The position numbers and the translations under genes were made by a program. Below the pieces are notes generated by a model, which worked only from the letters and a program-made list of their open reading frames with translations, was not told the origin of the DNA and did not search any database. From a virus, in the IMG/VR virus record IMGVR_UViG_3300042518_001094, positions 1 to 27,011 of that record: 27,011 nucleotides of DNA; one strand, 5' to 3'. Below are positions 2,759 to 27,011 of the stretch, in pieces (the first letter of the stretch is position 1; every line of letters begins with the position of its first letter).

Positions 2759-3241
2759 ATGGCAGCCACGCGCATGACAGCAGAGCAAAGGTTCTTCAGC
2801 TACGTCGACCAGTCGAGCGACTGCTGGAACTGGACTGGAGCAACCTTTGGCCAAGGAAGGTACGGCGCATTTTGGTTCCAGGGAAAGACAATCGGCGCAC
2901 ACATTTATTCCTTTGAACATCACATTGCCCATATTCCGACAGGGATGTATGTGTGTCACAGGTGCGACAACCCGCGATGCGTCAACCCTCAGCATCTTTT
3001 TCTTGGCTTCCCGAAAGAGAACACGCAAGACATGATGCAGAAGCGGCGCGGCAGATGGCCGAGCGGTGACAGCCATCACTTGAGCAAACTTACAAATGAG
3101 CAAGTGAAGCAAATCATTCAACTGAGAGGCGAAAAGACTCAGAGGGAAATTGCCGCCATGTTTGGCGTCGACCCAAGCCACGTCAGTCGCCTGATGAGCG
3201 GGCACAAACGCGGTCGCGTTCATGCTGCGCTCCTGACGTAG
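2759..3241 (+). CDS. HNH homing endonuclease with C-terminal helix-turn-helix
   Basis: This is the only complete plus-strand gene. It encodes 160 residues. The HNH_3-type core lies around residues 64-83, with His67, Asn76 and His79 in the CHRCDNPRC...NPQHL pattern and Cys66, Cys69 and Cys74 as possible zinc ligands. A helix-turn-helix domain follows (about 111-148: LTNEQVKQII, REIAAMFGVDPSHVSRL), as in free-standing phage homing endonucleases that use it for site recognition. A GGGGGG ribosome-binding site sits 4 nt before the ATG. The gene looks visibly richer in A+T than its neighbours, lies opposite to all of them, and overlaps the 3' end of the acetyltransferase gene by 22 bp. All of this points to recent acquisition as a mobile cassette. 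A non-mobile DNA-processing role is possible but less likely. Confidence 0.85.
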   Translation: MAATRMTAEQRFFSYVDQSSDCWNWTGATFGQGRYGAFWFQGKTIGAHIYSFEHHIAHIPTGMYVCHRCDNPRCVNPQHLFLGFPKENTQDMMQKRRGRWPSGDSHHLSKLTNEQVKQIIQLRGEKTQREIAAMFGVDPSHVSRLMSGHKRGRVHAALLT

Positions 3242-3669
3242 CTCATGTTGATCGACTTGCGCACGAACCCGATGCGGCGCAGGAAACGAAGCAGCCGCAC
3301 ATCAGTGCTGGGCTCGAGCTCCAGCACCGCGACCTTGACTCCCGAGCGGGACTTCACCCACCGAGCGAACTCTCGCAGCAGCGCCGCGCCCAGGCCCGGC
3401 AGGCGCGTGTAGTACAGCAGCACCGAGCACTGCAGCCCGCGATACCAGAACGAGCGCTGCGTCATCGCCGCCACCGCGGCCACCACGTTGCCGCTGTCGT
3501 CCTCGCCCACCCACATGAAGTGCGCCGGGTTCAGGCACTGCATGGCCATCTCGCGCATCGCCTCGCGGTCCACGGTCACCGGCAGCGGGTCGCGCATGAC
3601 CGACTCCACCGCGATGTCCACGACCGCGGCGATGTCCTTGTAGGTGGCCTTGCGGACCTGCATGATCAT
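3220..3669 (-). CDS. GNAT-family N-acetyltransferase (149 aa)
   Basis: The 149 residues fit the length of a single GNAT domain, which transfers an acetyl or acyl group from CoA to an amine. The N-terminus (MQVRKATYKDIAAVVDI) is the usual beta1-alpha1 region. The acetyl-CoA pyrophosphate loop is RLPGLG at residues 89-94 (R/QxxGxG/A pattern), followed by the expected helix ALLREFARWVK. The C-terminal RFLRRIGFVRKSINMSY is the typical late strand-helix-strand. The ATG overlaps the stop of the long repeat protein (ATGA), so the two are probably co-translated. The last seven codons overlap the HNH gene on the other strand. Acyltransferases of this type occur in the tail/ejection region of several temperate podophages and may modify a virion or host surface component. 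The substrate is unknown. Confidence 0.75.
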   Translation of the reverse strand: MIMQVRKATYKDIAAVVDIAVESVMRDPLPVTVDREAMREMAMQCLNPAHFMWVGEDDSGNVVAAVAAMTQRSFWYRGLQCSVLLYYTRLPGLGAALLREFARWVKSRSGVKVAVLELEPSTDVRLLRFLRRIGFVRKSINMSYVRSAA

Positions 3670-6600
3670 CCTGCGCCGCCGCCGTCGGTGGAGATGTTGA
3701 TGTTGTTCGGGTCAAAGCCGTACATCGGGTCCCAAGGCTCACGTCCCCAGGCGTCGCGGCGCTCCATTGCGTCACGGACGACGCCACCGCCCCCGCCTGG
3801 CGATGGTGCGGGCGAAGGAGAAGGCGATGGTGAGGGGGACGGCGACGGTGACGGCGCAGAAGCACCAGTGACCCTGTCGTAGTCGGCCCTGGTGAAGTTG
3901 GTGCCCACGGCCTGGTTCCACATCGACACCGTCTGGTCAGGCGTCAGGCCCATGCGTTGCGCGTAGGCAATACCCGCCGCAGTCCCTGCGTCTGCGTTGC
4001 TTGCGCCAGACTGGATGGCAGCCTTCAGCCCGGCGACGTTGGCACCCGGCGTGATCGTGGACCCAGTCCCCGTGCGGGCGAAGCCAGTCATGGACGTGTT
4101 GTAGAACGTCGACCCCCACTGCAACGTGCTGTTGGCGTTGGCGATCACGTTGTCGATCGCTGCGTTCTTGGCCTCGGGCGTCAGGTTCCCATCGGCCATG
4201 ATGGCGTTGATCGTCGAGCTGGTGCTGGACGTGACGTTGGCTGCGAAGGTGCCGGGAACCTGAGCCGTCGACAGGTTGTTGGCCAGCCTGGTCATCGCCT
4301 CCTGGTGCGTGCGATCGAGGTTGGCCTGCGTGGTCTGGAATGTCTGGCGCGCAGTTTCAAGGGTCTGTTGCTGCGTGCGGTCGGCGGCGTTCTCGGTTCG
4401 CTGGAACTCTTGACGAGCCTGCTCCAGCGCCTTGTTGGCGGTGATGTTCTTGTCGGTCAGCATGATCTGCTGAGCGCGGTCTTTCTCATTCTGAGTGGCC
4501 TGGAAGGTCTGCGCCGCCGAGGCTAGGTTCGCCTGCTGATCGCGGTCGAGCTGACGTTGGCCAGACTCAAACTGCCGGGCGATGATTCCCTCGCCACGCT
4601 GAAATTCTTGACGTGACTGCTCAAGTGCCTGCTGCGCCGAGATGTTCTTGTCGGTCAGCATAATTTGCTGGGCCCGATCTTTCTCGTTCTGCGTAGCTTG
4701 GAAAGTCTGCGCAGCGCTTGCCAGAGACGACTGCTGATCTCGGTCAAGCTGACGTTGGCCAGCTTCAAAGGTCCGGCCGGCAGCGTTCTCCCCACGCTGG
4801 AACTCTTGGCGCGATTGCTCAAGCGCTTGCTGAGCGGTGATGTTCTTGTCGGTCAGCATGATCTGCTGAGCGCGGTCTTTCTCGTTCTGGGTAGCTTGGA
4901 AGGTCTGGGCTGCCGAGGCTAGGTTCGCCTGCTGCGTGCGGTCAAGCACGTTCTCGCCCCGCTGGAACTCCTGCCGTGCAGTCTCCAGCGCCTTGTTGGC
5001 TGAAATGGTCCTGTCTGTCAGCATGAGCTGCTGAGCACGATCCATTTCCGCTTGAGAGGCTTGGAATGTTTGGCGTGCAGTCTCCAAGGCCTGTTGCTGA
5101 GTGCGGTCGAGCGAGCTCTCGCCGCGCTGGAACTCCTGCCTTGCCTGCTCCAGCGCCTTGTTGGCGTCGATTGTCTTGTCCGCGAGCATCAACTGCTGAG
5201 CTCGATCCTTCTCGTTTTGCGTAGCCTGGAAAGTCTGCGCCGCTTGAGCAAGGGACGCCTGCTGCGTGCGGTCAAGCACGTTCTCGCCCCGCTGGAACTC
5301 CTGCCTTGCCTGCTCCAGCGCTTGGTTCGCGGTGATCTGCTTATCCGCCAACATGAGTTGCTGGGCGCGGTCCTTCTCGTTTTGCGAGGCCTGGAAGGCC
5401 TGCGCCGCTTGAGCAAGGGACGCCTGCTGCGTACGGTCCAGCGCAGACTCACCGCTCTGGAACTCCTGCCGCGCCTTCTCCAGAGCTTGCTGAGCGGTGA
5501 TCTGCTTATCCGCCAACATGAGTTGCTGGGCGCGGTCCTTTTCGTTTTGCGAGGCCTGGAAGGCCTGCGCCTTGGACGCTAAGTCGGCTTGCTGGGTGCG
5601 ATCAAGCTCTCGCTGACCCTGCTCAAACGTCCTGTTAGCGACGTTCTCGCCTCTGGTGAAGTCCTGCTGTTGCGTCTGCAGCTCTTTCTGCTGCGTACGG
5701 TCCAGCTCAGACTCACCGCTCTGGAACTCCTGCCGCGCCTTCTCCAGAGCTTGCTGAGCGGTGATGTTCTTGTCCGCCAGCATGAGCTGCTGGGCGCGCT
5801 CAAGGGTAGCCTGGTCGGCCTGGAATACCTGTTGGGCCTTGGCCAAGTCCGTGGCCTGCTTGCGGTCCAGACCTGCCTGCTCGCCCTGGAACTCTTGGCG
5901 CGATTGCTCCAGCGCTTGCTGCGCCGTGATGTTCTTGTCGGCCAGCATGATGTCTGCGGCGCGATTCTTCTCAGACTCGGTGGCCTGGAAGGACTGGGCC
6001 GCCGTCTGGAGCTGGAACTGCTGCTGGCGGTCCAGGTTGTTCTGAGTGGCCTGGAACGACTGCTGCTTTTCCTGCAGCGTCGACTGATGAATTCGGTCGA
6101 GGTCCGACTGTGCAGCCGTGAATTTCTGCTGCGCAACCTGCAAGGCCTGTTGCGCCTCAACGGACTTGTCGGCCAGGGCTCTTTCCAGAGCCCGATTCAG
6201 ATCGGCTTGCGCAGCGTTGAAGTTCTGCGTGGCCAGAGTCTGCTCGGCCGTGAAGGCCTGGCCCGCCGTGCGCTCACTGGTGGCAAACTTGCGCCCGGCC
6301 TCGTTCTCGCTGGCCGTGAATGACTGGTCAGCACGCTGCAGGCTGAACTTGTTCTGCTCGCCCGCATTGAACTGGCCGGCTTGGTTGACGGTGGTCTGAT
6401 TGGCCAGCGCCTGGTTGGCAAACGTCTGCGCGTCCGCCTGCGCGATCGGCGTGATCTTGTCGATCATCGCGGCCTGCGAGGCGCCGATGGCCATGGAGCT
6501 GTTGACCAGGCCCCGCTGGTTCATCTGCTGCAGCGCCATCGTGCGGGCGCGCTGCATCAGCGGGTTGTTCTTCGACAGCAGGGACTCGACCTGCCCGGCC

Positions 6601-6737
6601 GTCGTCTCCGTGGCACGGTCGACTTGGCGCGTCTGCGGATTGAATGCGGCCGCCTGCTGGATCAGCCCCTGGCTCGGCGCAGGTGCAGGCGCGGGAGCCT
6701 GGACGTCGAACGGGTTGTTGGGAACCATCGTGGCCAT
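3666..6737 (-). CDS. Giant 11-residue-repeat (hendecad) coiled-coil virion-type protein (1023 aa)
   Basis: The start is an ATG preceded by GAGGA (6 nt). Residues 1-129 include an NPFD motif, a Pro/Ala linker and a helical region (RGLVNSSMAIGASQAAMIDK) that I recall from other phage structural proteins. Residues 130-822 are about 63 consecutive 11-residue units with no break in register. The units follow a five-unit cycle, for example QALEQARQEFQ, RGENVLDRTQQ, ASLAQAAQTFQ, ATQNEKDRAQQ, LMLADKQITAN. Residues ~823-955 form a non-repetitive domain (LTPEAKNAAID, TPDQTVSMWNQ). A Ser-Pro dipeptide linker (about 958-980) and a Gly/Asp-rich tail follow. If helical throughout, the repeat would span about 104 nm at 1.5 A per residue. 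Its place between the holin-like gene and the ejection genes suggests a virion component such as an ejection protein, tail filament or scaffold. No function is established. Confidence 0.7.
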   Translation of the reverse strand: MATMVPNNPFDVQAPAPAPAPSQGLIQQAAAFNPQTRQVDRATETTAGQVESLLSKNNPLMQRARTMALQQMNQRGLVNSSMAIGASQAAMIDKITPIAQADAQTFANQALANQTTVNQAGQFNAGEQNKFSLQRADQSFTASENEAGRKFATSERTAGQAFTAEQTLATQNFNAAQADLNRALERALADKSVEAQQALQVAQQKFTAAQSDLDRIHQSTLQEKQQSFQATQNNLDRQQQFQLQTAAQSFQATESEKNRAADIMLADKNITAQQALEQSRQEFQGEQAGLDRKQATDLAKAQQVFQADQATLERAQQLMLADKNITAQQALEKARQEFQSGESELDRTQQKELQTQQQDFTRGENVANRTFEQGQRELDRTQQADLASKAQAFQASQNEKDRAQQLMLADKQITAQQALEKARQEFQSGESALDRTQQASLAQAAQAFQASQNEKDRAQQLMLADKQITANQALEQARQEFQRGENVLDRTQQASLAQAAQTFQATQNEKDRAQQLMLADKTIDANKALEQARQEFQRGESSLDRTQQQALETARQTFQASQAEMDRAQQLMLTDRTISANKALETARQEFQRGENVLDRTQQANLASAAQTFQATQNEKDRAQQIMLTDKNITAQQALEQSRQEFQRGENAAGRTFEAGQRQLDRDQQSSLASAAQTFQATQNEKDRAQQIMLTDKNISAQQALEQSRQEFQRGEGIIARQFESGQRQLDRDQQANLASAAQTFQATQNEKDRAQQIMLTDKNITANKALEQARQEFQRTENAADRTQQQTLETARQTFQTTQANLDRTHQEAMTRLANNLSTAQVPGTFAANVTSSTSSTINAIMADGNLTPEAKNAAIDNVIANANSTLQWGSTFYNTSMTGFARTGTGSTITPGANVAGLKAAIQSGASNADAGTAAGIAYAQRMGLTPDQTVSMWNQAVGTNFTRADYDRVTGASAPSPSPSPSPSPSPSPAPSPGGGGGVVRDAMERRDAWGREPWDPMYGFDPNNINISTDGGGAG
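4272..6350 (-). repeat. Tandem 33-bp coding repeats with a 165-bp higher-order period
   Basis: The coding DNA for residues 130-822 is built from 33-bp units. Marker positions for one unit type (the one encoding MLADK or MLTDK) are 4441, 4639, 4837, 5002, 5167, 5332, 5497, 5761, 5926 and 6157. The spacings are 198, 198, 165, 165, 165, 165, 264, 165 and 231 bp, all multiples of 33. The basic superrepeat is therefore five units, with one, two or three extra units inserted in places. Several copies are nearly identical at DNA level, so the tract should be prone to length change by recombination. Confidence 0.9.
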
Positions 6738-6814: not shown

Positions 6815-6843
6815 ATTGTAGAGCCATTCAATGGCATTGTGAA
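6815..6843 (-). promoter_or_regulatory. Candidate late promoter for the repeat-protein operon, containing element copy 2 (6829-6842)
   Basis: On the minus strand TTCACA (6838-6843) is 17 bp from TACAAT (6815-6820). The next 14 bases (CCACGTCGGCCAAC) and then TCCGTCCCG (6792-6800) match the region after the promoter at 21548, where TCCGTCCCG also begins exactly 14 bp after the -10. That shared spacing is the best support for this promoter. The dispersed element CAATGGCATTGTGA overlaps the -35 here, whereas at 17.2 and 21.5 kb it covers the -10. Confidence 0.6.
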
Positions 6844-6847
6844 GTTA

Positions 6848-7168
6848 TCAGCCGAGGCCGGACTTCTTCATCACGGTCATCGCCAGCAGGCCCAAGCCGG
6901 CCCAGACCGCCCGGTCCACCCAGACGCTCACCCGCTTGTTGGCGGGAACGTCTTTCTCAAGCGCAGCCACCCGGGTCTCCACCCGCTCCAACGCACTGAA
7001 CGCACGCTCGAGCGACGCGGCCGCATTGGCCTGGCGCTCTTCGATCAGCGCCAGCTTGGTGATCGCCGTGGCGAGATCCTTGAGCACACTCTTCATTTCG
7101 CTGACGTCCTCGTGGAGGGTCTTGAGCTGGATGCTGAGCACGGTGGGATCTTGAGTCGTGTCTGACAT
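6848..7168 (-). CDS. XhlA/holin-like small membrane protein (106 aa)
   Basis: Residues ~10-75 form a continuous amphipathic coiled coil (heptad-spaced Leu/Ile, many Glu/Lys). One C-terminal transmembrane segment follows (about 86-100, RAVWAGLGLLAMTVM), ending in a short basic tail (KKSGLG). This coil-then-single-TM layout is that of the XhlA (haemolysin/holin accessory) family and of some class III-like holins, so a lysis role at the inner membrane is likely. A ribosome-binding site (AAGGAAGG) lies upstream of the ATG. It follows a DUF5856-type gene, and its stop lies 4 bp from element copy 2. No endolysin is seen nearby, so a virion membrane role remains possible. Confidence 0.55.
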   Translation of the reverse strand: MSDTTQDPTVLSIQLKTLHEDVSEMKSVLKDLATAITKLALIEERQANAAASLERAFSALERVETRVAALEKDVPANKRVSVWVDRAVWAGLGLLAMTVMKKSGLG

Positions 7169-7183: not shown

Positions 7184-7546
7184 TTACTTCAAGTGCTTGA
7201 GCTTGTAGAGCGTGCTGAGGTACAGCGCGATCACCTCGTCGATGATGTTCTGCAGGGTCGAATCTGTCTTGGCCGCGGCCTTGTAGCGGTTGTTCTCGAT
7301 CCACATCAGGTGCTGCGACATGATGCCCACCGCGCCGCCGGACTTGAAGTCGTTCTCGGCCAGGGGGATGGTGCCGATCAGGCCGTGCCGGCCCTGGTAG
7401 GCCTCGGCCAGCTTGTCGGCCAGCTCGATCACACCCGGGTAGAACTCACCGAGCGCCATGTGCTGCGAGAAGCTGGTGGTCGACAGGTGCTCCCGGTGCG
7501 CGATGTCGCGACTCAGGAACAGGACGGCGATGAGGTCGGCGATCAT
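7184..7546 (-). CDS. Ferritin/Dps-like phage protein, DUF5856 type (120 aa)
   Basis: The protein is predicted to be all helical. It starts with a hydrophobic helix (IADLIAVLFLSRDIAH), then His- and Glu-bearing helices (HREHLSTTSFSQHMALGEFY, then IELADKLAEAYQG). Candidate metal-ligand residues are His17, His20, His29, Glu34 and Asp44. The pattern of short helices with a conserved A/SFxxHxALGxFY core and a following AYQG matches my memory of the DUF5856 family, small ferritin-like proteins common in tailed phages. Whether it binds iron or protects DNA is unknown. An AGG about 11 nt before the ATG is a weak ribosome-binding site, and element copy 3 overlaps it. It lies between the tail-fibre block and the holin-like gene. 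Confidence 0.55.
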   Translation of the reverse strand: MIADLIAVLFLSRDIAHREHLSTTSFSQHMALGEFYPGVIELADKLAEAYQGRHGLIGTIPLAENDFKSGGAVGIMSQHLMWIENNRYKAAAKTDSTLQNIIDEVIALYLSTLYKLKHLK

Positions 7547-7555
7547 GCGTTCAAC

Positions 7556-7569
7556 CTATGGCATTGTGA
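7556..7569 (-). promoter_or_regulatory. Dispersed element, copy 3
   Basis: CTATGGCATTGTGA lies in the 26-bp gap between the tail-assembly-like gene and the DUF5856-type gene, 10 bp from the ATG of the latter. On the minus strand I see no good -35/-10 pair. This argues that the element can be something other than a promoter, such as a protein-binding site. Confidence 0.6.
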
Positions 7570-7572
7570 TTG

Positions 7573-8010
7573 TCAGATAGGCCAGACCAGCGCCGGCAGC
7601 TCGGGCTCGACGTCCGCAAAGCTGTTGGGCATCGGGCGCGTGCCGGCCTGCACCTCATCCAGCATGGTGTACAGCTTGTCCCAGGTCTCCGCACGCCGAT
7701 CCTGACAGTAGCTGCCCTCGGTGTTGAACTTCGGCACCGAGCAGCCCGCGTAGGTGCAGGCACTCTTGATGTCGTCGTAGTTGCGCGTGCGGGCGAAGGT
7801 GTCGAGTCTGGTCTGGGTGGCTGCGACGATCTCGTCTTGAATTTCCGCTGACGTCTTAATGGGAGGCGGCGGTGGAGAAAAAGACTGCCCATCCCAAAGG
7901 AACCCAATTTCTGCGCCGGTGGCGTCCACCCATCCCTGTTGAGACGCAAACTCAGAATCGGCAACTGCAATGTTGATGACCGTGCCGTTTTCGATGACTG
8001 CGAATTTCAT
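7573..8010 (-). CDS. Tail-fibre-assembly-like protein (145 aa)
   Basis: The N-terminus MKFAVIENGTVINIAVAD followed by a WDGQSFSPPPPP segment is the usual opening of phage tail-fibre assembly proteins, which help distal fibre parts fold or join. The rest is helical (IQDEIVAATQTRLDTFARTRNYDDIKSACTY), with a C-terminal PELPALVWP. I chose the ATG at 8008-8010 because GGTGA lies just upstream. A GTG at 8017-8019 would add three residues and overlap the stop of the adhesin gene (GTGA). It sits directly downstream of the fibre and adhesin genes, as expected. It could instead be a small structural fibre component. Confidence 0.6.
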   Translation of the reverse strand: MKFAVIENGTVINIAVADSEFASQQGWVDATGAEIGFLWDGQSFSPPPPPIKTSAEIQDEIVAATQTRLDTFARTRNYDDIKSACTYAGCSVPKFNTEGSYCQDRRAETWDKLYTMLDEVQAGTRPMPNSFADVEPELPALVWPI

Positions 8011-8959: not shown

Positions 8960-10879
8960 TCAGTCGATCAGCGTCCAGCCGCGAGTGGCATCCGCGTACA
9001 CCAGGGTGCCCCGGGCCTGCGCAGAGTCAAGCGTCATGTCCTCCGCCAGGCTCATAATGTTTAGGCCGTTGCGGGCAATGACTGCCGTGGTCGTCCCGCT
9101 GCGATTGATGAACGCGATCTCGTCACCAGCGCTAGGCGAGGCCGGCAGCGTCAGGGTCAACGACGCAGTGAGGACATAGGTGGCGGACCTGACGGCTGCG
9201 GTGTTGATTGAGATGATCTGTACGTTTTGCGTGATGACCGGCGTCGTCAGCGTCTTGTTGGTCAGCGTCTGCGTTGCCGTCGGCGTGACTACGTCACCCC
9301 AAGCAGGAGGCGCCGCAGACCCCGCAGAGATCAGCGCCTGCCCATTGGTGCCGTAGTTCGCGCCGCTGAATCCAACGGCACCAGTCGAACGCAATCGCAG
9401 ACGTTCAGCGGCGACTCCGTTGCCGGTAACCTCAAACCACAGGTCTGCATCCTCAGTGCCAGCAGTCACGTCCGTGATCTCGGATCCGACTCGTGCGTAC
9501 TGCTGGTCGGCCGCGCCGCTGTCCTTGCCGCGCCAGATGATCACGCCGAGCTGGTCTGCGGCGGCCGGGCTTGAGGAGTTGCGGTAGAGCACCAAGTCCG
9601 GTGCGGCCGTGGCCGACGTGTCAAGAGACTCCAGCACCACCATGTCTGCAGCGTTCGTGCCGCGGAAGGTGTACACGCCTGTCGCGGTCGCAGACCCGAA
9701 CGTGACGTTGCCGACATCGTCAAACGTCAGCCGGTCCACGCCGTTGGTGGAAAGCGCCAGGGGCAGCGCGTTGTTGGACGCAAGCCGCACCAGCGCCGCC
9801 GTCGTCTGGAATTGGCCTTGCGTCGTGCCAGACGACTGCACGAGCACGCGCGAGTCCGCTCCGGTGTTGACCGTCAGGTTTCCGGTGATCGTGCCTCCAG
9901 TCAGCGACAAGACACCAGGAAAAGTCTGCCCACCCGCGAAGGTGATGGCACCCGTCATCGTGCCGCCAGACAACTGAAGGTAACCTGTGGTCGGAAGGTA
10001 GGTCGCGATCCACGCAGACCCCGTCCACACCTTCATGATGCTGGACGTCGTGTTCCAGTAGATCGCCCCGGTCAGCAGCGCGTTGCCGTCGTTGTCGAGC
10101 GTGGGGTCGCTGGCCTTGGCGCCCAAGTACCGGTCATCGAATGCGTCGTAGCTTGCCGCCGCATCAGTGGCCGATGTTTGCGCATTGCCCGCAAAGGTCT
10201 GCGCGCTCGTGGCGCTGTTGGCCGCAGCAGAGGCACTGGACGCTGCGGCTGCGGCCGACGTCGCTGCAGCAGCAGTGCTGCCAAAGAGCGTGCTAACGTA
10301 ATCGAGATTGACCGCGTCGTTGCTGTTCGTCGGCGTGCCCAGGCCGGTGATTTTGCTCGACCCCATGGCGATCGCGCCGCTCATGGTGCCGCCAGCAAGC
10401 GCCAGGCGCGTGTCGCGCTGCGTATCGACGTAGGCCTTGTTGGCCGCCTCGTCGTTGGCGCTCGGCGTCTGCAGCCCCGCGATCGAGCCCACGGTCGCGC
10501 TGGCCATGTCCAGCGTGCCGTTGATGGTCACGTTGTTGAAAGTCGATGTGCCGCTGCCGGCCGTGACGTTGCCGGTCACGTTGCCGTTCAGGTTGCCCGT
10601 GATGCCGCCGCTTGCAGACAACGTGGTGAACGCGCCTGCGGCCGGCGTGGTGGTGCCGATCGTCGTGTTGTTCAGCGTCAGGCCAGACAACGACAGCGTG
10701 CTCGTCTGGGCCGTGCCGCCGGCATTGATCACCACCACTTTGTTGCCGTTGCCGGTCAGCGTTGGCAGCTTCAGGAACCCTTGCTCGATGGAGTCGAGCT
10801 CAGCGCGCAGCGCGGCCGAAGAGCCTGGCGCGTTGGGGCCCGGGTACGTGGTGTGGTCGTAGTAGTCGTTGCTTGGCAT
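8960..10879 (-). CDS. Tail fibre / tail spike protein (639 aa)
   Basis: Residues 1-45 resemble a virion-attachment peptide (SSAALRAELDSIEQGFLKLP). A long beta-rich region follows, with repeats such as SLSGLTLNNTTIG, GNLNGNVTGNV and LSGGTMTGAI, and two ANKAYVDT/NLDYVST joints characteristic of phage fibre shafts. Residues ~200-240 are an Ala/Ser-rich coiled coil (SAAAAASSASAAAN). The region ~530-560 carries a LTNKTLTTPVI motif, also common in fibres, and the C-terminal ~80 residues look globular. No intramolecular chaperone or depolymerase active site is obvious. The start has GAGG before the ATG and lies 3 bp after the tail-hub gene. It is clearly a fibre; its length is typical for a podophage side fibre. 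Confidence 0.8.
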   Translation of the reverse strand: MPSNDYYDHTTYPGPNAPGSSAALRAELDSIEQGFLKLPTLTGNGNKVVVINAGGTAQTSTLSLSGLTLNNTTIGTTTPAAGAFTTLSASGGITGNLNGNVTGNVTAGSGTSTFNNVTINGTLDMASATVGSIAGLQTPSANDEAANKAYVDTQRDTRLALAGGTMSGAIAMGSSKITGLGTPTNSNDAVNLDYVSTLFGSTAAAATSAAAAASSASAAANSATSAQTFAGNAQTSATDAAASYDAFDDRYLGAKASDPTLDNDGNALLTGAIYWNTTSSIMKVWTGSAWIATYLPTTGYLQLSGGTMTGAITFAGGQTFPGVLSLTGGTITGNLTVNTGADSRVLVQSSGTTQGQFQTTAALVRLASNNALPLALSTNGVDRLTFDDVGNVTFGSATATGVYTFRGTNAADMVVLESLDTSATAAPDLVLYRNSSSPAAADQLGVIIWRGKDSGAADQQYARVGSEITDVTAGTEDADLWFEVTGNGVAAERLRLRSTGAVGFSGANYGTNGQALISAGSAAPPAWGDVVTPTATQTLTNKTLTTPVITQNVQIISINTAAVRSATYVLTASLTLTLPASPSAGDEIAFINRSGTTTAVIARNGLNIMSLAEDMTLDSAQARGTLVYADATRGWTLID

Positions 10880-14177: not shown

Positions 14178-14639
14178 TCAGGCCGTCAGGGGCCGGGTGG
14201 GAACAGCGAACAGGTTGAAGTACGTGCCGGTGATGCCGGACGCACTCAGGTCCACCGAGCCCGGAGTGAACGTCGCCGAGGCGTTGGTGTCGACGCGGAT
14301 CGCGCCCACAACAGCGATCTCGCCGACCGGCGCGGCCGGCCACTCCAGGCCACGCACACCAGCGGTGACTTCAGCCGTGAGCACAGCGCGGCCGGCCACA
14401 GTCGAAAAGTTGCCGCCAGAGTCCAGGCACACCAAGTACAGGCACGAGCTCGACACGGGCACGGTGGCGTGGCCGGCAGAGAACGCGACGTTGTTGGTGG
14501 CAGCCTTGGACCGGAGCACGCCGTCGGTCACGAAGGTGATCGTGTTGGCGGTCTGGTAGGTGTTGGCGTTGGTGCCTTCGGCCAGGCCGCCGGAGGTCAG
14601 GGCGAACGAGCCGCCTTGCGAGAGCTTGAGGTTGTCCAT
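14178..14639 (-). CDS. Probable capsid decoration / minor head protein (153 aa)
   Basis: The start has AAAGG upstream of the ATG (AAAGGATCTCACGATCATG). The sequence is beta-rich and Ser/Thr/Ala/Gly-rich with few charged residues (ANTYQTANTITFVTDGV, VGAIRVDTNASATFTPG). This is typical of small capsid-surface proteins. It lies two genes after the major capsid protein and between two UUCG hairpins. No specific family is recognised. A decoration or cement role is a reasonable guess; a tail-associated role cannot be excluded. Confidence 0.55.
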   Translation of the reverse strand: MDNLKLSQGGSFALTSGGLAEGTNANTYQTANTITFVTDGVLRSKAATNNVAFSAGHATVPVSSSCLYLVCLDSGGNFSTVAGRAVLTAEVTAGVRGLEWPAAPVGEIAVVGAIRVDTNASATFTPGSVDLSASGITGTYFNLFAVPTRPLTA

Positions 14640-14660
14640 GATCGTGAGATCCTTTCGTGA

Positions 14661-14873
14661 TCAGGCAGTGAATTGAGCTGCAGCCAAGCCGACGGTGGCC
14701 GCGTAGTTGGTGTCGGTGACACCACCATCGAGGTCCAGCTTCGCCAGAAGGGCTGCGTACTTGGTACGCACGTCGTTGAGCTCGGCGCGCAGCGTGTCCA
14801 GCTCACGGGTGAGCTGAGCGCGCTCGCTGACGGCGAGGCTCTGGGTCGTGTTGAGAACTTGCTTGTAGGCCAT
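14661..14873 (-). CDS. Small coiled-coil head protein (70 aa)
   Basis: Residues ~15-45 form a heptad coiled coil (ERAQLTRELDTLRAELNDVRTKYAALLAKL). The last 20 residues read GGVTDTNYAATVGLAAAQF. A GAAAGGA site lies 6 nt before the ATG. It immediately follows the major capsid gene across a hairpin-bearing gap. Short proteins of this shape are common after capsid genes in related phages, but I know no function. It may be a capsid accessory or assembly factor. Confidence 0.55.
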   Translation of the reverse strand: MAYKQVLNTTQSLAVSERAQLTRELDTLRAELNDVRTKYAALLAKLDLDGGVTDTNYAATVGLAAAQFTA

Positions 14874-14888
14874 GGTGTTCCTTTCAGC

Positions 14889-14910
14889 GAGGAGGGCCGA
14901 AGCCCCCCTC
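14889..14910 (-). other. UUCG-loop hairpin after the major capsid gene
   Basis: On the minus strand GAGGGGGGC, loop TTCG, GCCCTCCTC gives a 9-bp stem with one mismatch, starting 7 bp after the capsid stop. There is no U-tract. The same stem-loop type recurs at 14146-14169, so the pair may set mRNA stability or stoichiometry of the capsid genes. Confidence 0.55.
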
Positions 14911-14917
14911 AGTTACA

Positions 14918-15955
14918 TCACAGACCGGAAGCGGCCGCCTCGAGGCGGACCATCCAGTTCTCGTTCAGACGCACCGCGGACTTGTAGAAGTTCGCGCCGA
15001 CGTATCCGAACTGACCCATCGGGTTGGCGTGCGTGATCTGCTTTGCCGGCAGGTAGATCGGCTGGATCGCGCCCATGCCCTTCAGTGCCACCTGACCCCA
15101 GGCCTCCTGAGCCACCACCATCAGGGGGTAGACGTCAGCCGTGGTGCCAGCGGTGCCACCGTTGGACAGGAATGCACCCGCCGTGATCGTGCCGCCAGCC
15201 GTCAAGAACGGGCGGAAGTACGGGCTGGTGATGAAGCGGAACTGCTCCACCGCACCGATCTCGCGCTCATGCACAGGCTTCTGGGTGCCGTACTCGACGA
15301 CAGGGGTGAAGCCAGCCAGGTTGCGGATGTCGGCTTCCATGTCGGTGTGGATGAACACCAAGTAGGCCGGGTGGATGCCGGAGGTGCCGAAGTTCGGGCC
15401 GGCGGCCAGCTTCTCGGTCACGCGCTTGGCGTGCGCGGCCTCGAGCTGACGAGCGGCCTGGCGCAGCTTGTTCAGCGTGATGGCGGTGTTGACCGCGTTG
15501 CGGGCAGCGCCGTTGGCAAACACCACGTTCGTACCACCGCGCACCACGCCGTAGGCGATCAGCTCTTCGATGGTGGCCATGTGCTCGCCCACCAGCTTGG
15601 TCATGTCGCCGGGGATGTCATCCTCGTACATGGACTCGGCCTTGGACGAGAGCTTCATCAGCACGCCGTACTGCTGCAGGGTGACCTGCACGTCCTGGTA
15701 GGTGATGGTGCGAGCCGAGGGGGTCACGCCTTCTTGCAACAGGTAGTTGCTGGTGGTGACGGACGGCGCGCCGTTGGAGCCAGCGTCGATCGGCAGGGCG
15801 CGACGGAACACGACCGTGTCGGTCTTGTTCTGGGGCACCTGCTTCTGCGAGCCAAAGCTGCCCATCACCTTGATGGGCTCGGCGTGCTTGAGCATCTCGC
15901 GCTCAGCCATGATGAGGTTCCGCGAAGGAACCAGGGAATAGGTCTGCATGGTCAT
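14918..15955 (-). CDS. Major capsid protein, N4-gp56 family (345 aa)
   Basis: Length (345) and order (terminase, portal, scaffold, this gene) fit an HK97-fold major capsid protein. The sequence matches the N4-gp56 type: an N-terminal MLKHAEPIKVMGSFG, then NKTDTVVFRRALP, LQEGVTPSARTITYQDVQVTLQQYG, KLSSKAESMYEDD, and a C-terminal half with VFIHTDMEADIRNL and VEQFRFITSPYFRPF. It would form the icosahedral shell. The start lies 6 bp after the scaffold stop, with AAAAAAGG 9 nt before the ATG, consistent with strong translation. A second ATG two codons later is also possible. There is no protease gene nearby, so maturation by cleavage is unlikely. Confidence 0.85.
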   Translation of the reverse strand: MTMQTYSLVPSRNLIMAEREMLKHAEPIKVMGSFGSQKQVPQNKTDTVVFRRALPIDAGSNGAPSVTTSNYLLQEGVTPSARTITYQDVQVTLQQYGVLMKLSSKAESMYEDDIPGDMTKLVGEHMATIEELIAYGVVRGGTNVVFANGAARNAVNTAITLNKLRQAARQLEAAHAKRVTEKLAAGPNFGTSGIHPAYLVFIHTDMEADIRNLAGFTPVVEYGTQKPVHEREIGAVEQFRFITSPYFRPFLTAGGTITAGAFLSNGGTAGTTADVYPLMVVAQEAWGQVALKGMGAIQPIYLPAKQITHANPMGQFGYVGANFYKSAVRLNENWMVRLEAAASGL

Positions 15956-17201: not shown

Positions 17202-17229
17202 ACTATAGCATTGTGAAGTTGCGAGTCAA
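17202..17229 (-). promoter_or_regulatory. Sigma70-type late promoter with element copy 4 (17203-17216)
   Basis: On the minus strand TTGACT (17224-17229), 16-bp spacer, TATAGT (17202-17207), with TGC just before the -10 (extended -10). The dispersed element CTATAGCATTGTGA covers the -10 and half of the spacer. The 14 bases after the -10 (TCGCCCCGGGTCAC) resemble those after the promoters at 21548 and 6815. The start point should be near 17195, giving a leader of about 50 nt before the terminator. Confidence 0.75.
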
Positions 17230-21547: not shown

Positions 21548-21575
21548 ACTATAGCATTGACATACCTAGTGTCAA
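21548..21575 (-). promoter_or_regulatory. Sigma70-type late promoter with element copy 5 (21549-21562)
   Basis: On the minus strand TTGACA (21570-21575), 16-bp spacer, TATAGT (21548-21553), with TGC before the -10. This is the best promoter in the window. The -35 overlaps the stop codon of the upstream gene. The dispersed element appears as CTATAGCATTGACA, the copy most altered on its right side. The next bases are CCCCGCCGGGGCAG then TCCGTCCCG, the latter shared at the same distance with the promoter at 6815. Confidence 0.85.
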
Positions 21576-23114: not shown

Positions 23115-23147
23115 GGTCGTCTCCATGAGTTGATGAAGTCCCGATTA

Positions 23148-23161
23148 TCACAATGCCTATA
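23148..23161 (+). promoter_or_regulatory. Dispersed element, copy 6, reversed orientation
   Basis: TCACAATGCCTATA on the plus strand is the reverse complement of the consensus found at the other six sites. It lies in the 63-bp gap between the Q-like gene and the small coiled-coil gene. Read on the minus strand the sequence includes TGTGATAAT, a possible extended -10 for the downstream genes without a clear -35. On the plus strand it would point into the 3' end of the Q-like gene. Confidence 0.55.
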
Positions 23162-23177
23162 TGCCGGCGCCAGCCAA

Positions 23178-24010: not shown

Positions 24011-24227
24011 TTGGCGGGCTCAAACGGCCTGCCCGCCAACATCTCGCCACCCCTTAAGGGTGTGGCGAGTTGGCGAGATGATCCCGCCAACATCTCGCCA
24101 AAGAGCTGGCGAGATGATTTGTGTTTGCTGACAAGCACTTACGTTCATTTTTTCCTCGTCTCGCCACGTCTCGCCAAGACGCTGGCGAGATCGAAATATC
24201 ACATCTCGCCAAGACATTGGCGAGATG
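24011..24227. repeat. Array of 13 TGGCGAG-type elements in both orientations; candidate replication origin
   Basis: Core TGGCGAG or its reverse complement CTCGCCA occurs ten times, and the variant TGGCGGG/CCCGCCA three times, between 24011 and 24227. Most copies extend to CATCTCGCCA or TGGCGAGATG. They pair into perfect dyads: 24011-24039 (9-bp arms), 24043-24069 (8-bp arms around the palindrome CCCTTAAGGG), 24091-24116 (10-bp arms) and 24202-24227 (11-bp arms). CGTCTCGCCA is repeated in direct tandem at 24157-24176. A T-rich stretch is at 24145-24154. The array directly follows the primase-helicase gene, which suggests a replication origin with iterons. An operator or partition site is an alternative. 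Confidence 0.7.
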
Positions 24228-24233
24228 ATTTGC

Positions 24234-26246
24234 TTAATTTTTAAGCAGCAGCGCTCCCGTCATGGACAGCTCCTTGACCGCCTTTTCGGACGCTTCCCAG
24301 CCCTTTCCTGACGTCGACCTGACGACCAAGCCACTGTCTGCGCAGGACTTCATGATTCGGCTGACCGACCGTTCGGAGCACTTCAGGAGCTTGCAGAGAC
24401 CCGGGGTGCCAGGCCACTGTTGCGGGTAGATCGCCTTGACGACCTGCAGGGCGGTGATGGGCTGGCCGCTGGTGGTGGTGCCGACCTTGAACTCCATCGG
24501 GTTGCCGTCGAGCTCGAGTGCTGCGCCCAGGATCTCGACGTCCGCGTCGTCGCGCACGCCAAGGCCCATCTGAATGATCTTGAAGGCCCGGGGGGCCGGC
24601 GCCTCGGCGTCCTTCATCTTGGTGCAGGACACCTCCAGCTTGCCGTTGCCGCCCTTGATCGCGATCTCCTGGTCCATGGCGGCCTTGAACACGCTCGAGC
24701 CGCGGGCGCGGTCCATGTCGTGTCCAGAGTGGTGGACGATGATGATCGTGCAGTTCCATTGACGCCTCAGCCGGTCGACGGCCGCGATGAATGCATTGGC
24801 GTCTTCCTGCTTGTTCTCGTCGCCGGGGCCGAAGTTGCGCGCCAGGGTGTCGACCATGATCAGGCGCGGGGCCTGGCCGGTGGCGGCCGCCATGCGCTCG
24901 ATCTCTGCGGCCAGCTTGTCCGCCTCGGCCTGGTTGAGCAGCAAGATGGCGTGGTTACTTTTGAAGAGCGGGGTGTCCTTGGTGATGGCCTTCCCGCGGG
25001 CCTTGCTCCAGCCAGCGAAGCGCCGGGTCAGTCCGTTGTGGCCTTCGCCCGCGATGTAGAACACCGCTCCCCTCTCCACCGCGTTGCCGTGCCAGGGTGT
25101 GCCCGTGGCCACGCAGCAGGCCCAGTCGACCACGACGAAGCTCTTGCCCACGCCTGATGGCCCGAAGACCATGGCCAGCGCGTCCTGCTCGAGGTAGCCA
25201 TCGATGACCCACTTGATCTGCTTGATGTCGGACAGGAGCTGCCAGACGGGGGTGAAGATCGGCTGATCGATGAGCTCACCCGTCTCGGGGTCGACCACCT
25301 GCGCCACAGGGGGCGGAGGCAGGCGGAACTTCTGCTCCGCGGTGGCCACGCTGCGTGGGATGTCCTGGTAGCGCTGCGCCCACCGGTCGTCTCTGGCCGC
25401 GGAGCTCGACTCCATCATGGCGCGCAGGATGTTGACCACCGCACCGCCCTTGGCGCCCGAGGCCACCAGGCTGGCCGCCATCACATTGATGGAGTCGTGC
25501 AGCGCCTCGCCGCGCAGGATGTTGCCGGTGAGCACGCGCAGGCGCTCGTCCTGCTCGCCCTCGACCATGGTGCTGGTGGGCCGGTGCTCGGCCGCTTGCT
25601 GGCGCAGCTCGTCCAGGTCCAGCCCGAAGATGCCGACCGCGTCCTCGAGGCTGTAGCGGTTCGCCGGGTTCCAGTACTCGACATACACCTGCCAGGCGCC
25701 CGAGTCGCGGGGTTTCTGGTTCTGCCCCGTGGGCAGGCGCACGTAGCGCACCGCGTTGTTGCCAGACCTGTCGGCCTTGATCAGGCCCTTCTCGGCCATC
25801 GCGGTGACGACGCGGGTGACCAAGTCCAGGTTGCTGCAGTCCGGGTCCGACCTGTCCAGCAAGATGCCGATCTGCCGCTTGTTGGGGCTGGTCTCGATGC
25901 CCCAGCTCGGCGTGCCCTGCAGATCTGCCGGCTCGACGTCGTCGGCCACCAGGGCCAGCAGCTTGGCGAAGTGAGACTTGCGCCGGTGCAGCTCGCCGTC
26001 CGAGTCGCGCCGCATGGCGGCGACCGAGAAGTAGGTGTTCTGGCGTGACCAGGAGTCGACCTCCTGAGCCATCGTGGCCGCGTTGTAGGGCTTTCCCTGC
26101 CAACTGGCGTCGGACCCGTTGGGGTTGCCGATGAACGCATTGACCCAGACGGCGCTGCCGTTGGGAGCGGCCTGCAGCAACTCGCGAAGGAAATCGCTGT
26201 TGGCAACGGCGCCTGGTGAGCTAGACACCTCGGATGTGGTCATCAT
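24234..26246 (-). CDS. Replicative primase-helicase fusion, AAA/RepA-type (670 aa)
   Basis: Residues ~30-200 look like an archaeo-eukaryotic-type (RepB-like) primase domain: VADDVEP at 100-106, GIETSPNKRQIGILL at 116-130, and RYVRLPTGQNQK at 167-178. Residues ~335-540 form a RecA-fold hexameric helicase: Walker A GPSGVGKS at 362-369, Walker B RLIMVD at 461-466, and the sensor-like IIIVHHSGHDMDRARGSS at ~501-518. The C-terminus is a probable winged helix (GLCKLLKCSERSVSRIMKSC). It should prime and unwind phage DNA, acting at an origin that probably lies just downstream of the gene. It begins with two consecutive ATGs (26246, 26243). The promoter and a structured leader lie in the 145-bp gap upstream. 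Confidence 0.8.
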   Translation of the reverse strand: MMTTSEVSSSPGAVANSDFLRELLQAAPNGSAVWVNAFIGNPNGSDASWQGKPYNAATMAQEVDSWSRQNTYFSVAAMRRDSDGELHRRKSHFAKLLALVADDVEPADLQGTPSWGIETSPNKRQIGILLDRSDPDCSNLDLVTRVVTAMAEKGLIKADRSGNNAVRYVRLPTGQNQKPRDSGAWQVYVEYWNPANRYSLEDAVGIFGLDLDELRQQAAEHRPTSTMVEGEQDERLRVLTGNILRGEALHDSINVMAASLVASGAKGGAVVNILRAMMESSSAARDDRWAQRYQDIPRSVATAEQKFRLPPPPVAQVVDPETGELIDQPIFTPVWQLLSDIKQIKWVIDGYLEQDALAMVFGPSGVGKSFVVVDWACCVATGTPWHGNAVERGAVFYIAGEGHNGLTRRFAGWSKARGKAITKDTPLFKSNHAILLLNQAEADKLAAEIERMAAATGQAPRLIMVDTLARNFGPGDENKQEDANAFIAAVDRLRRQWNCTIIIVHHSGHDMDRARGSSVFKAAMDQEIAIKGGNGKLEVSCTKMKDAEAPAPRAFKIIQMGLGVRDDADVEILGAALELDGNPMEFKVGTTTSGQPITALQVVKAIYPQQWPGTPGLCKLLKCSERSVSRIMKSCADSGLVVRSTSGKGWEASEKAVKELSMTGALLLKN

Positions 26247-26348: not shown

Positions 26349-26374
26349 AAATAGGCATTGTGATACTTGCGCAA
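26348..26374 (-). promoter_or_regulatory. Candidate early promoter with element copy 7 (26350-26363)
   Basis: On the minus strand TTGCGC (26369-26374) is 15 bp from TATTTT (26348-26353); CTTGCG gives 16 bp. AATAGGCATTGTGA covers the -10 and most of the spacer, as in the late promoters at 17202 and 21548. The promoter is weaker than those two. It would drive the primase-helicase gene. Confidence 0.5.
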
Positions 26375-26406
26375 GCTCAATTGCGCCCGTATCAAGTGCG
26401 TGATAC
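26361..26406. repeat. TGATAC half-site cluster upstream of the replication gene
   Basis: TGATAC occurs at 26361-26366 and 26401-26406, and its inverse GTATCA at 26389-26394. The last two form a dyad with a 6-bp centre (AGTGCG). Two of the sites are followed by GCGC in the same frame (TGATACTTGCGC; reverse strand TGATACGGGCGC). CTTGCGCAAG (26366-26375) is a perfect palindrome. The cluster overlaps the candidate early promoter, so it is a plausible operator for the phage repressor or Cro. Confidence 0.5.
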
Positions 26407-26619
26407 TTTGGAGCTAAACTTCCGCAGCACTGGCTTACGGCCCAGGATGGCCTTGTCTGCCTTGAGCCGTCCGCCTGAGAGGTGCTCTATGCGTAGCTGC
26501 TGCAGGCGCGGTACGCAGCCGCGTGCGCGCCACATGCTGATGGTGGGTTGAGTGACGCCAATCGCCGCAGCAGCCGCGACCTGGGTGCCCCAAAAATGGA
26601 TGACTTGATCGACGTGCAT
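26392..26619 (-). CDS. Cro/YdaS-like helix-turn-helix regulator (75 aa)
   Basis: I start at the ATG at 26617-26619 (MHVDQVIHFWG). The frame stays open further upstream, but that would overlap the promoter and the divergent repressor start. Residues ~10-32 are a helix-turn-helix (GTQVAAAAAIGVTQPTISMW), followed by RARGCVPRLQQLRIEHLSGG, the YdaS/Cro-type pattern in which the product binds operators and turns off lysogenic transcription. The C-terminus is basic (LGRKPVLRKFSSK). There is no clear ribosome-binding site at this ATG; ATGs at 26667 and 26673 have AAGG but lie upstream of the predicted -10. It faces the CI-like gene on the other strand. Confidence 0.65.
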   Translation of the reverse strand: MHVDQVIHFWGTQVAAAAAIGVTQPTISMWRARGCVPRLQQLRIEHLSGGRLKADKAILGRKPVLRKFSSKVSRT

Positions 26620-26630
26620 GTGTGAATTTG

Positions 26631-26645
26631 TTGTGAATATCACAA
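26631..26645. promoter_or_regulatory. Operator-like perfect dyad in the immunity region
   Basis: TTGTGAATATCACAA is a perfect inverted repeat (6-bp arms, 3-bp centre), next to a half-site TGTGAATTTG (26621-26630) and near CTTGTGAAGTC (26678-26688). It lies at the predicted start point of the Cro-like transcript. The half-site TTGTGA is also the right part of the dispersed element (ATTGTGA), which may link the two. Confidence 0.55.
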
Positions 26646-26655
26646 AGAGGTCGGC

Positions 26656-26685
26656 AGTGTAATCCATGACCATCAGCCTTGTGAA
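26656..26685 (-). promoter_or_regulatory. Candidate promoter of the Cro-like gene
   Basis: On the minus strand TTCACA (26680-26685), 18-bp spacer, TACACT (26656-26661). The predicted start (~26649) is next to the operator-like dyad, and the -35 contains a TTGTGAA half-site. Moderate match only. Confidence 0.4.
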
Positions 26686-26735
26686 GTCGGGCAAGTTGTT
26701 GTTTTTACGAGTGAAGAACGAGAGTGATCTGCAGC

Positions 26736-27011
26736 ATGAAAAAAACCGTCGAATCTGATAGGTCTTTCGCAAAGTGGGCTAAGTCGGCGACGATAGGCGA
26801 ACGGATCCGCTGGCTCATAGAGGCCAGGGGCTACAAACAGACCGAACTCGCCGCCAAAATGGAACTGACCCAAGCCACCATTAGCAACTGGATCACCGGC
26901 GCCTCGCGCAAGCCCAACGCCCCCAGTCTTCTGAAGCTCGCCGCCGCACTGCAGTGCAACCCGCAATGGGTCATCGACGGAACGGGTGATCCCTGGCAGA
27001 TGAACAAGATG
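26736..27011 (+). CDS. CI-like lysogeny repressor, N-terminal part (runs off right edge)
   Basis: The frame opens at the ATG at 26736 and stays open to the window end (92 residues). Residues 20-75 are an HTH_3 domain: IGERIRWLIEARGYKQTELAAKMELTQATISNWITG, with the recognition helix at ~44-55, then SLLKLAAALQCNPQWVIDGTGDPW, the classic end of the DNA-binding domain. The expected C-terminal S24 peptidase/dimerisation domain would lie beyond the window. Divergence from a Cro-like gene over an operator-bearing gap is the standard lysogeny switch. The ribosome-binding site is weak (GAGAG 12 nt upstream). A GTG four codons earlier is an alternative start. Confidence 0.75.
   Translation, partial: MKKTVESDRSFAKWAKSATIGERIRWLIEARGYKQTELAAKMELTQATISNWITGASRKPNAPSLLKLAAALQCNPQWVIDGTGDPWQMNKM

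Follow-up and report, generated by a model that had tools for sequence, protein, structure and literature searches.

A Candidate CI–Cro Operator Dispersed over the Genomes of an Uncultured, Probably Temperate Phage Lineage

Introduction

Immunity systems in which the repressor acts at many dispersed operators are known from a few unrelated repressors. In mycobacteriophage L5, more than 20 repressor sites (operators and stoperators) occur genome-wide; they follow the direction of transcription and are found in short gaps between genes and in promoters. The repressor, of 183 residues, has two DNA-binding domains, and its monomer recognizes an asymmetric site of 13 bp (PMC9283540, PMC6550527). 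Phage P1, which uses C1/Coi/Lxc, has 22 dispersed C1 operators with the asymmetric 17-bp consensus ATTGCTCTAATAAATTT (PMC8546580). The SPbeta master repressor MrpR, which binds an intergenic element repeated across the prophage, has a tyrosine-recombinase fold, and about ten promoter regions have been named for its 15-bp SPBRE motif (PMC10516654).

The window analysed here is a stretch of 27,011 nucleotides (IMG/VR record IMGVR_UViG_3300042518_001094, positions 1 to 27,011). This 27-kb phage contig carries structural, capsid, portal, terminase, RusA, and helicase genes on its minus strand, followed by cro. Like the lambdoid switches of P22, lambda, and 434, it has a CI-type HTH repressor (HTH_3) divergent from a P22_Cro; there are dyad operators at cro in outgroups, and in the window the predicted −35 coincides with an imperfect dyad. 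Unlike in these switches, the sites are not confined to OL/OR, the repressor has no C-terminal peptidase/autocleavage domain, and late promoters are apparently covered directly. The many dispersed sites co-oriented with transcription recall L5, but the repressor is a P22-C2-like protein of 115–124 residues modelled with one HTH and with a divergent cro, and the element is an imperfect dyad with symmetric versions rather than an asymmetric site. P1 has dispersed sites and an asymmetric consensus as well, but the two consensuses are unrelated, and CI/Cro stands where P1 has C1/Coi/Lxc. The similarity with SPBRE is that of a repeated intergenic element presumably bound by a master repressor, whereas CI is an HTH protein and MrpR has a recombinase fold. 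Because the repressor type differs from those of L5 and SPbeta and the consensus from that of P1, the system is not assigned to any of them.

Genomes Compared

Relatives were collected via terminase, Cro, and CI. The contigs derive from environmental DNA, and mosaic ones may be among them. Genes were called by ourselves with a codon-usage caller; greedy longest-ORF calls are unreliable at 64% GC. A tyrosine integrase is present in seven of the 12 contigs searched, all seven from the clade of the window phage, which is therefore probably temperate. Scanning genome contigs for hosts turned up a single prophage-like locus, L108, which lies in a Burkholderiales MAG, and no phage of the named phage collection has a CI or Cro match at 60% identity or more. 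The features of the window are given in Table 1.

Table 1. Coordinates of the switch genes, predicted promoter, and operator-like sites in the window
Feature	Position	Strand	Remarks
Element copy, weak	2728–2748	−	10.3 bits; 15 bp 5′ of gene 2023–2712
Element copy TGAACATCACATTGCCCATAT	2914–2934	+	20 bits; runs against neighbouring genes; unnamed in the earlier note
Element copy 2	6828–6848	−	TTCACA is −35 of TTCACA-N17-TACAAT (6843–6815)
Element copy	7555–7575	−	8 bp from start of gene 7184–7546
Element copy 4	17202–17222	−	Between −35 and −10 of TTGACT-N16-TATAGT (17229–17202)
Element copy, variant ATGTCAATG	21548–21568	−	Inside promoter TTGACA-N16-TATAGT (21575–21548)
Element copy 6	23142–23162	+	25.6 bits; direction opposite to flanking genes
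Element copy 7	26349–26369	−	25.9 bits; ~100 bp 5′ of helicase operon
cro	26392–26619	−	75 aa; P22_Cro family, Pfam PF14549 (E = 1e-11); PHROG transcription regulators
Further half-site TTCACAC	26620–26626	−	Touches cro start codon; from sequence
Dyad TTGTGA-ATA-TCACAA	26631–26645	.	Auxiliary; about +5 to +19, in predicted cro leader; noncanonical half-site order
Predicted cro promoter	26656–26685	−	TTCACA-N18-TACACT; −10 position agrees with relatives
Dispersed element CCGACTTCACAAGGCTGATGG	26670–26690	−	16.5–16.8 bits; TTCACA is predicted −35 of Pcro
cI-like repressor gene	26736–27011	+	HTH_3; cut by contig end; full-length relatives 115–124 aa

The Dispersed Element

The element is about 16 bp long, with the consensus TATCACAATGcTGATA (more fully R-A-A-G-TATCACAATGcTGATA), and is also found in dozens of related phages with the same switch genes. 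The consensus is an imperfect version of the symmetric 16-mer formed by the halves TATCACAA and TTGTGATA; expressed as TCAC-N4-GTGA, it departs by one base, in the right half, and the symmetric form of the proposed full operator is TATCAC-N4-GTGATA. A k-mer search of the clade, made without a prior motif, gives TATCACAAT, ATCACAATG, and TCACAATGC as the most enriched words, the first being found 86 times for 0.3 expected. With a matrix of 21 positions that included the window's own clade, 387 sites of at least 14 bits were found, against three in the reversed-sequence control. An independent matrix, which left this clade out and was trained solely on relatives whose Cro is ~60% identical, gives eight sites of at least 14 bits in the window, against 0.05 expected from dinucleotide shuffles. 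Contigs of 55 kb or more (relatives of 55–59 kb) contain ~27–43 sites each at 11 bits or more, and two contigs sharing only a distant terminase (G017 and G018) contain one and two. A search of the open literature for the exact element and dyad strings returned no paper containing them.

Two words that an earlier note on this DNA, made from the sequence alone, had assigned to dispersed copies are where it placed them: ATTGTGAAGTT in copies 2 and 4 (6836 and 17210; two found, 0.00 expected) and ATTGTGATA in copies 6 and 7 (23146 on the minus and 26357 on the plus strand; two found, 0.03 expected). These four copies are among the eight high-scoring sites, as is the half-site at 26679 (16.5 bits). 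The seven copies of that note are probably those at 6843, 7570, 17217, 21563, 23147, and 26364 and the weak one at 2743, the sites at 26685 and 2919 being additional. The hexamer TTGTGA alone occurs nine times in the window for 8.9 expected; it is thus at chance frequency, proves nothing by itself, and was discarded as evidence.

The cro Promoter and the Dyad

The sequence places the predicted start of cro transcription at about 26649, with the cro ATG at 26619. The perfect dyad described earlier at the Cro-side start point is present (TTGTGAATATCACAA, with 6-bp arms around ATA), and its location fits the predicted promoter. It is unique in the window at up to three mismatches, its own reverse complement aside, and is identical in two close relatives (L109 and L111). 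TTGTGAAGT, said to recur at 26679, does start there and lies within the element at 26670–26690. The relative strengths proposed for these sites, a strong dyad and weak dispersed copies, do not hold: the dyad scores only 10.4 bits with the matrix of distant relatives and is among the weakest sites of the window, with its half-sites in reversed order. Its right arm corresponds to the half-element TATCACAA. As with the further half-site of Table 1, several relatives have a TCACA directly 5′ of the cro start codon.

The spacer of Pcro is occupied by the element in most relatives, for example in TTGCGA-N7-TCACATGGCT-TATACT. The window is unlike them: what was formerly the spacer element seems to have degenerated (TCATGGATTACACT), and the TTCACA −35 is supplied by the element at 26670–26690. 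L131 is laid out alike and has TATACT as its −10. This element, lying over the predicted −35, would be a better cro operator than the dyad, which is possibly a secondary site just 3′ of the start point serving as a local down-regulator of cro.

The order of the half-sites separates the two kinds of site. Among 15 genomes, TCACA-N2-TGTGA occurs 28 times and the order of the dyad, TGTGA-N3-TCACA, six times, with none of either in the control. The latter six all adjoin cro and belong to two lineages, being downstream of the predicted −10 in G000, G001, and G002 and just upstream of it in G005, G006, and G007. Many outgroups with a more distant P22-type Cro have TCAC-N4-GTGA, or a form longer by one base, just upstream of cro; their symmetric operators usually number a handful per stretch scanned, mainly at cro. 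Hence, TCACA-N2-TGTGA is best regarded as the operator of the family and the dyad as the odd one. As a canonical operator the dyad was rejected, since its half-site order and spacing are wrong and its score is among the lowest in the window. A separate group of ~49% GC (L142–L151) has a symmetric operator ~28 bp before cro; most members have, in addition, a pair of operators 44 bp apart at a distance of ~3–4 kb. The group resembles a conventional system with few operators.

One protein might read the dyad and another the dispersed element (Cro and CI, for example, respectively), with the shared half-site reflecting only related recognition helices. The opposite order and spacing of the half-sites and the constant location of the dyad order at Pcro speak for this reading, which we consider somewhat unlikely. 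The half-element in the right arm of the dyad and its 10.4 bits speak against it. Moreover, the CI-less L118 and L125 have the corresponding half-sites separated by N8 instead of N3, which is unexpected if Cro alone uses the dyad. Of the earlier proposal that one protein binds both, what stands is that the immunity region and the dispersed copies share operator-like sequence, which tracks the CI–Cro pair; the sites may be read by one protein or by two (CI and Cro).

It is very improbable that the dyad is a hairpin of the cro-leader mRNA or a host CRP site instead of an operator. The 6-bp stem does form in the leader, but the folding of the latter is no better than that of shuffles (z = 0.5), on which ground the hairpin was rejected; in G005–G007 the same arrangement lies immediately before the −10, outside the transcript from Pcro. 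In the CRP consensus 6 bp separate the half-sites, against 3 bp in the dyad, and this misfit led to the rejection of a CRP site.

Genomic Placement of the Sites

In 12 genomes, 218 of the 267 sites are intergenic, while the noncoding share is ~7–33% per genome by our gene calls. Among intergenic sites with a downstream flanking gene, 185 of 217 are co-oriented with its transcription (p = 2e-27). Promoter matches number 74 around the sites, compared with four at random places, and are found in several registers, including a −10 immediately after the element and TTCACA as the −35. The element often overlaps the −35, the −10, or the start codon, and in 20 cases an ATG belonging to the element was called as the start of the gene. 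Binding by a dimer is assumed, although many of the sites are imperfect as dyads.

Good promoters of late/structural operons are predicted around three copies in the window (6843, 17217, and 21563), which lie respectively upstream of the large structural gene 3666–6737, of the capsid operon, and of terS-terL-portal. This lends support to the suggestion, also made earlier, that late operons are tied to the lysogeny switch. Copies 2914 and 23142, which point against their flanking genes, count against an explanation by dispersed operators.

Many copies have TATANT-like boxes 3′ of the element, at offsets 10–13, as one would expect if it were a phage promoter box (an extended −10 or an activator site) and not an operator. 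We regard this as improbable, because many copies overlap a −35 or a start codon instead (the 20 with the ATG inside), 28 symmetric copies exist, and the symmetric form of the outgroups is found mainly at cro.

CI, Cro, and the Use of the Sites

Every scanned locus with a homologous CI beside cro has ~4–24 sites per 10 kb, and loci with an unrelated P22-type Cro have sites near background. The residues Q46, S50, and N51 of the CI recognition helix are invariant down to 45% identity. The model of CI consists of one P22-C2-like HTH domain and two C-terminal helices; its nearest solved relative is the DNA-binding domain of P22 C2, and for the CI–Cro pair the nearest solved relatives include P22 C2 and P22 Cro. 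No Peptidase_S24 or C-terminal autocleavage domain was found in these proteins of 115–124 residues, and induction must therefore take another route (antirepressor?). In L061 (G016), an open frame adjoining cI, at ~14570–15000, resembles a GIY-YIG homing endonuclease by eye.

Some relatives are apparent cases of natural repressor loss. The cI gene is absent beside cro in L118, L119, L125, L128, and L130 and truncated in L126 (G008, 9828–9890), and in all of these cro and operators remain. Since relatives that lost CI keep many sites, CI alone may not explain them. Cro could then be the protein that chiefly reads the dispersed copies, tuning lytic transcription. Several CI-less lineages retain ~5–20 sites per 10 kb, and L142–L151, in which a Cro was found without a CI homologue, have the symmetric operator upstream of cro. 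We nevertheless consider Cro rather unlikely as the main reader: L129, whose Cro is 69% identical, has essentially no element sites, CI and Cro use common operators in lambda-type switches, and the sites are less conserved where CI was lost. Among kept sites, the odds ratio of core versus flank substitutions is 0.12 for pairs in which both members have CI and 0.52 where at least one has lost it, a difference (p = 6e-5; 0.005 without G008) that comes from few, partly overlapping genome pairs and small numbers. Conservation was computed on kept sites; lost and kept sites pooled are uneven between pairs. This weaker constraint is suggestive; it points to CI as the principal binder, at sites that Cro would use as well.

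Proposed Mechanism and Significance

The dispersed element is probably the operator of the CI–Cro pair, through which the repressor would silence early and late promoters directly. The TTGTGA/TCACAA word would be one half of this operator, the whole being a ~16-bp imperfect dyad with copies at promoters and gene starts throughout the genome. In the lysogen, CI, a short HTH repressor and presumably a dimer, would bind the copies and, where these cover the −35, the spacer/−10, or the start region, shut off early as well as late promoters; Cro is a probable second ligand of these sites. At cro, the element at 26670–26690 would cover the −35 of Pcro, and the dyad, with its reversed half-sites, would be a secondary site possibly used in local down-regulation of cro. 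Computation shows the element itself, how widely it is spread, that it overlaps predicted promoters, that it goes with CI–Cro, and that it is conserved; what we infer from this is the identity of the binding protein, its action as a dimer, repression, and what the dyad does.

We lean towards the view that an uncultured temperate lineage has turned a few-site CI–Cro operator into a network of ~30–40 sites repressing early and late promoters, and that the sites have begun to decay in several lineages that lost cI. Dispersed-operator immunity, so far associated with L5, P1, and SPbeta, would here apparently be built on a CI–Cro pair. If true, late genes are under direct control of the repressor and not only under control via an antiterminator cascade. 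The few-site outgroups, the genomes mixing symmetric and asymmetric sites, and the lineages lacking cI make both the step from local to genome-wide control and the subsequent decay directly testable.

Other Repeats in the Window

Two further kinds of repeats are found in the window. Direct repeats of 165/198 bp, at 4375–6066, lie inside the gene 3666–6737, which codes for a repetitive structural protein of 1023 residues (fibre-like?). Between the RusA and helicase genes, at 24011–24232, there are at least three copies of hairpin-forming repeats (CATCTCGCCA...TGGCGAGATG); the cluster is also present in the close relative G001, at ~25995–26180, and could be a replication origin.
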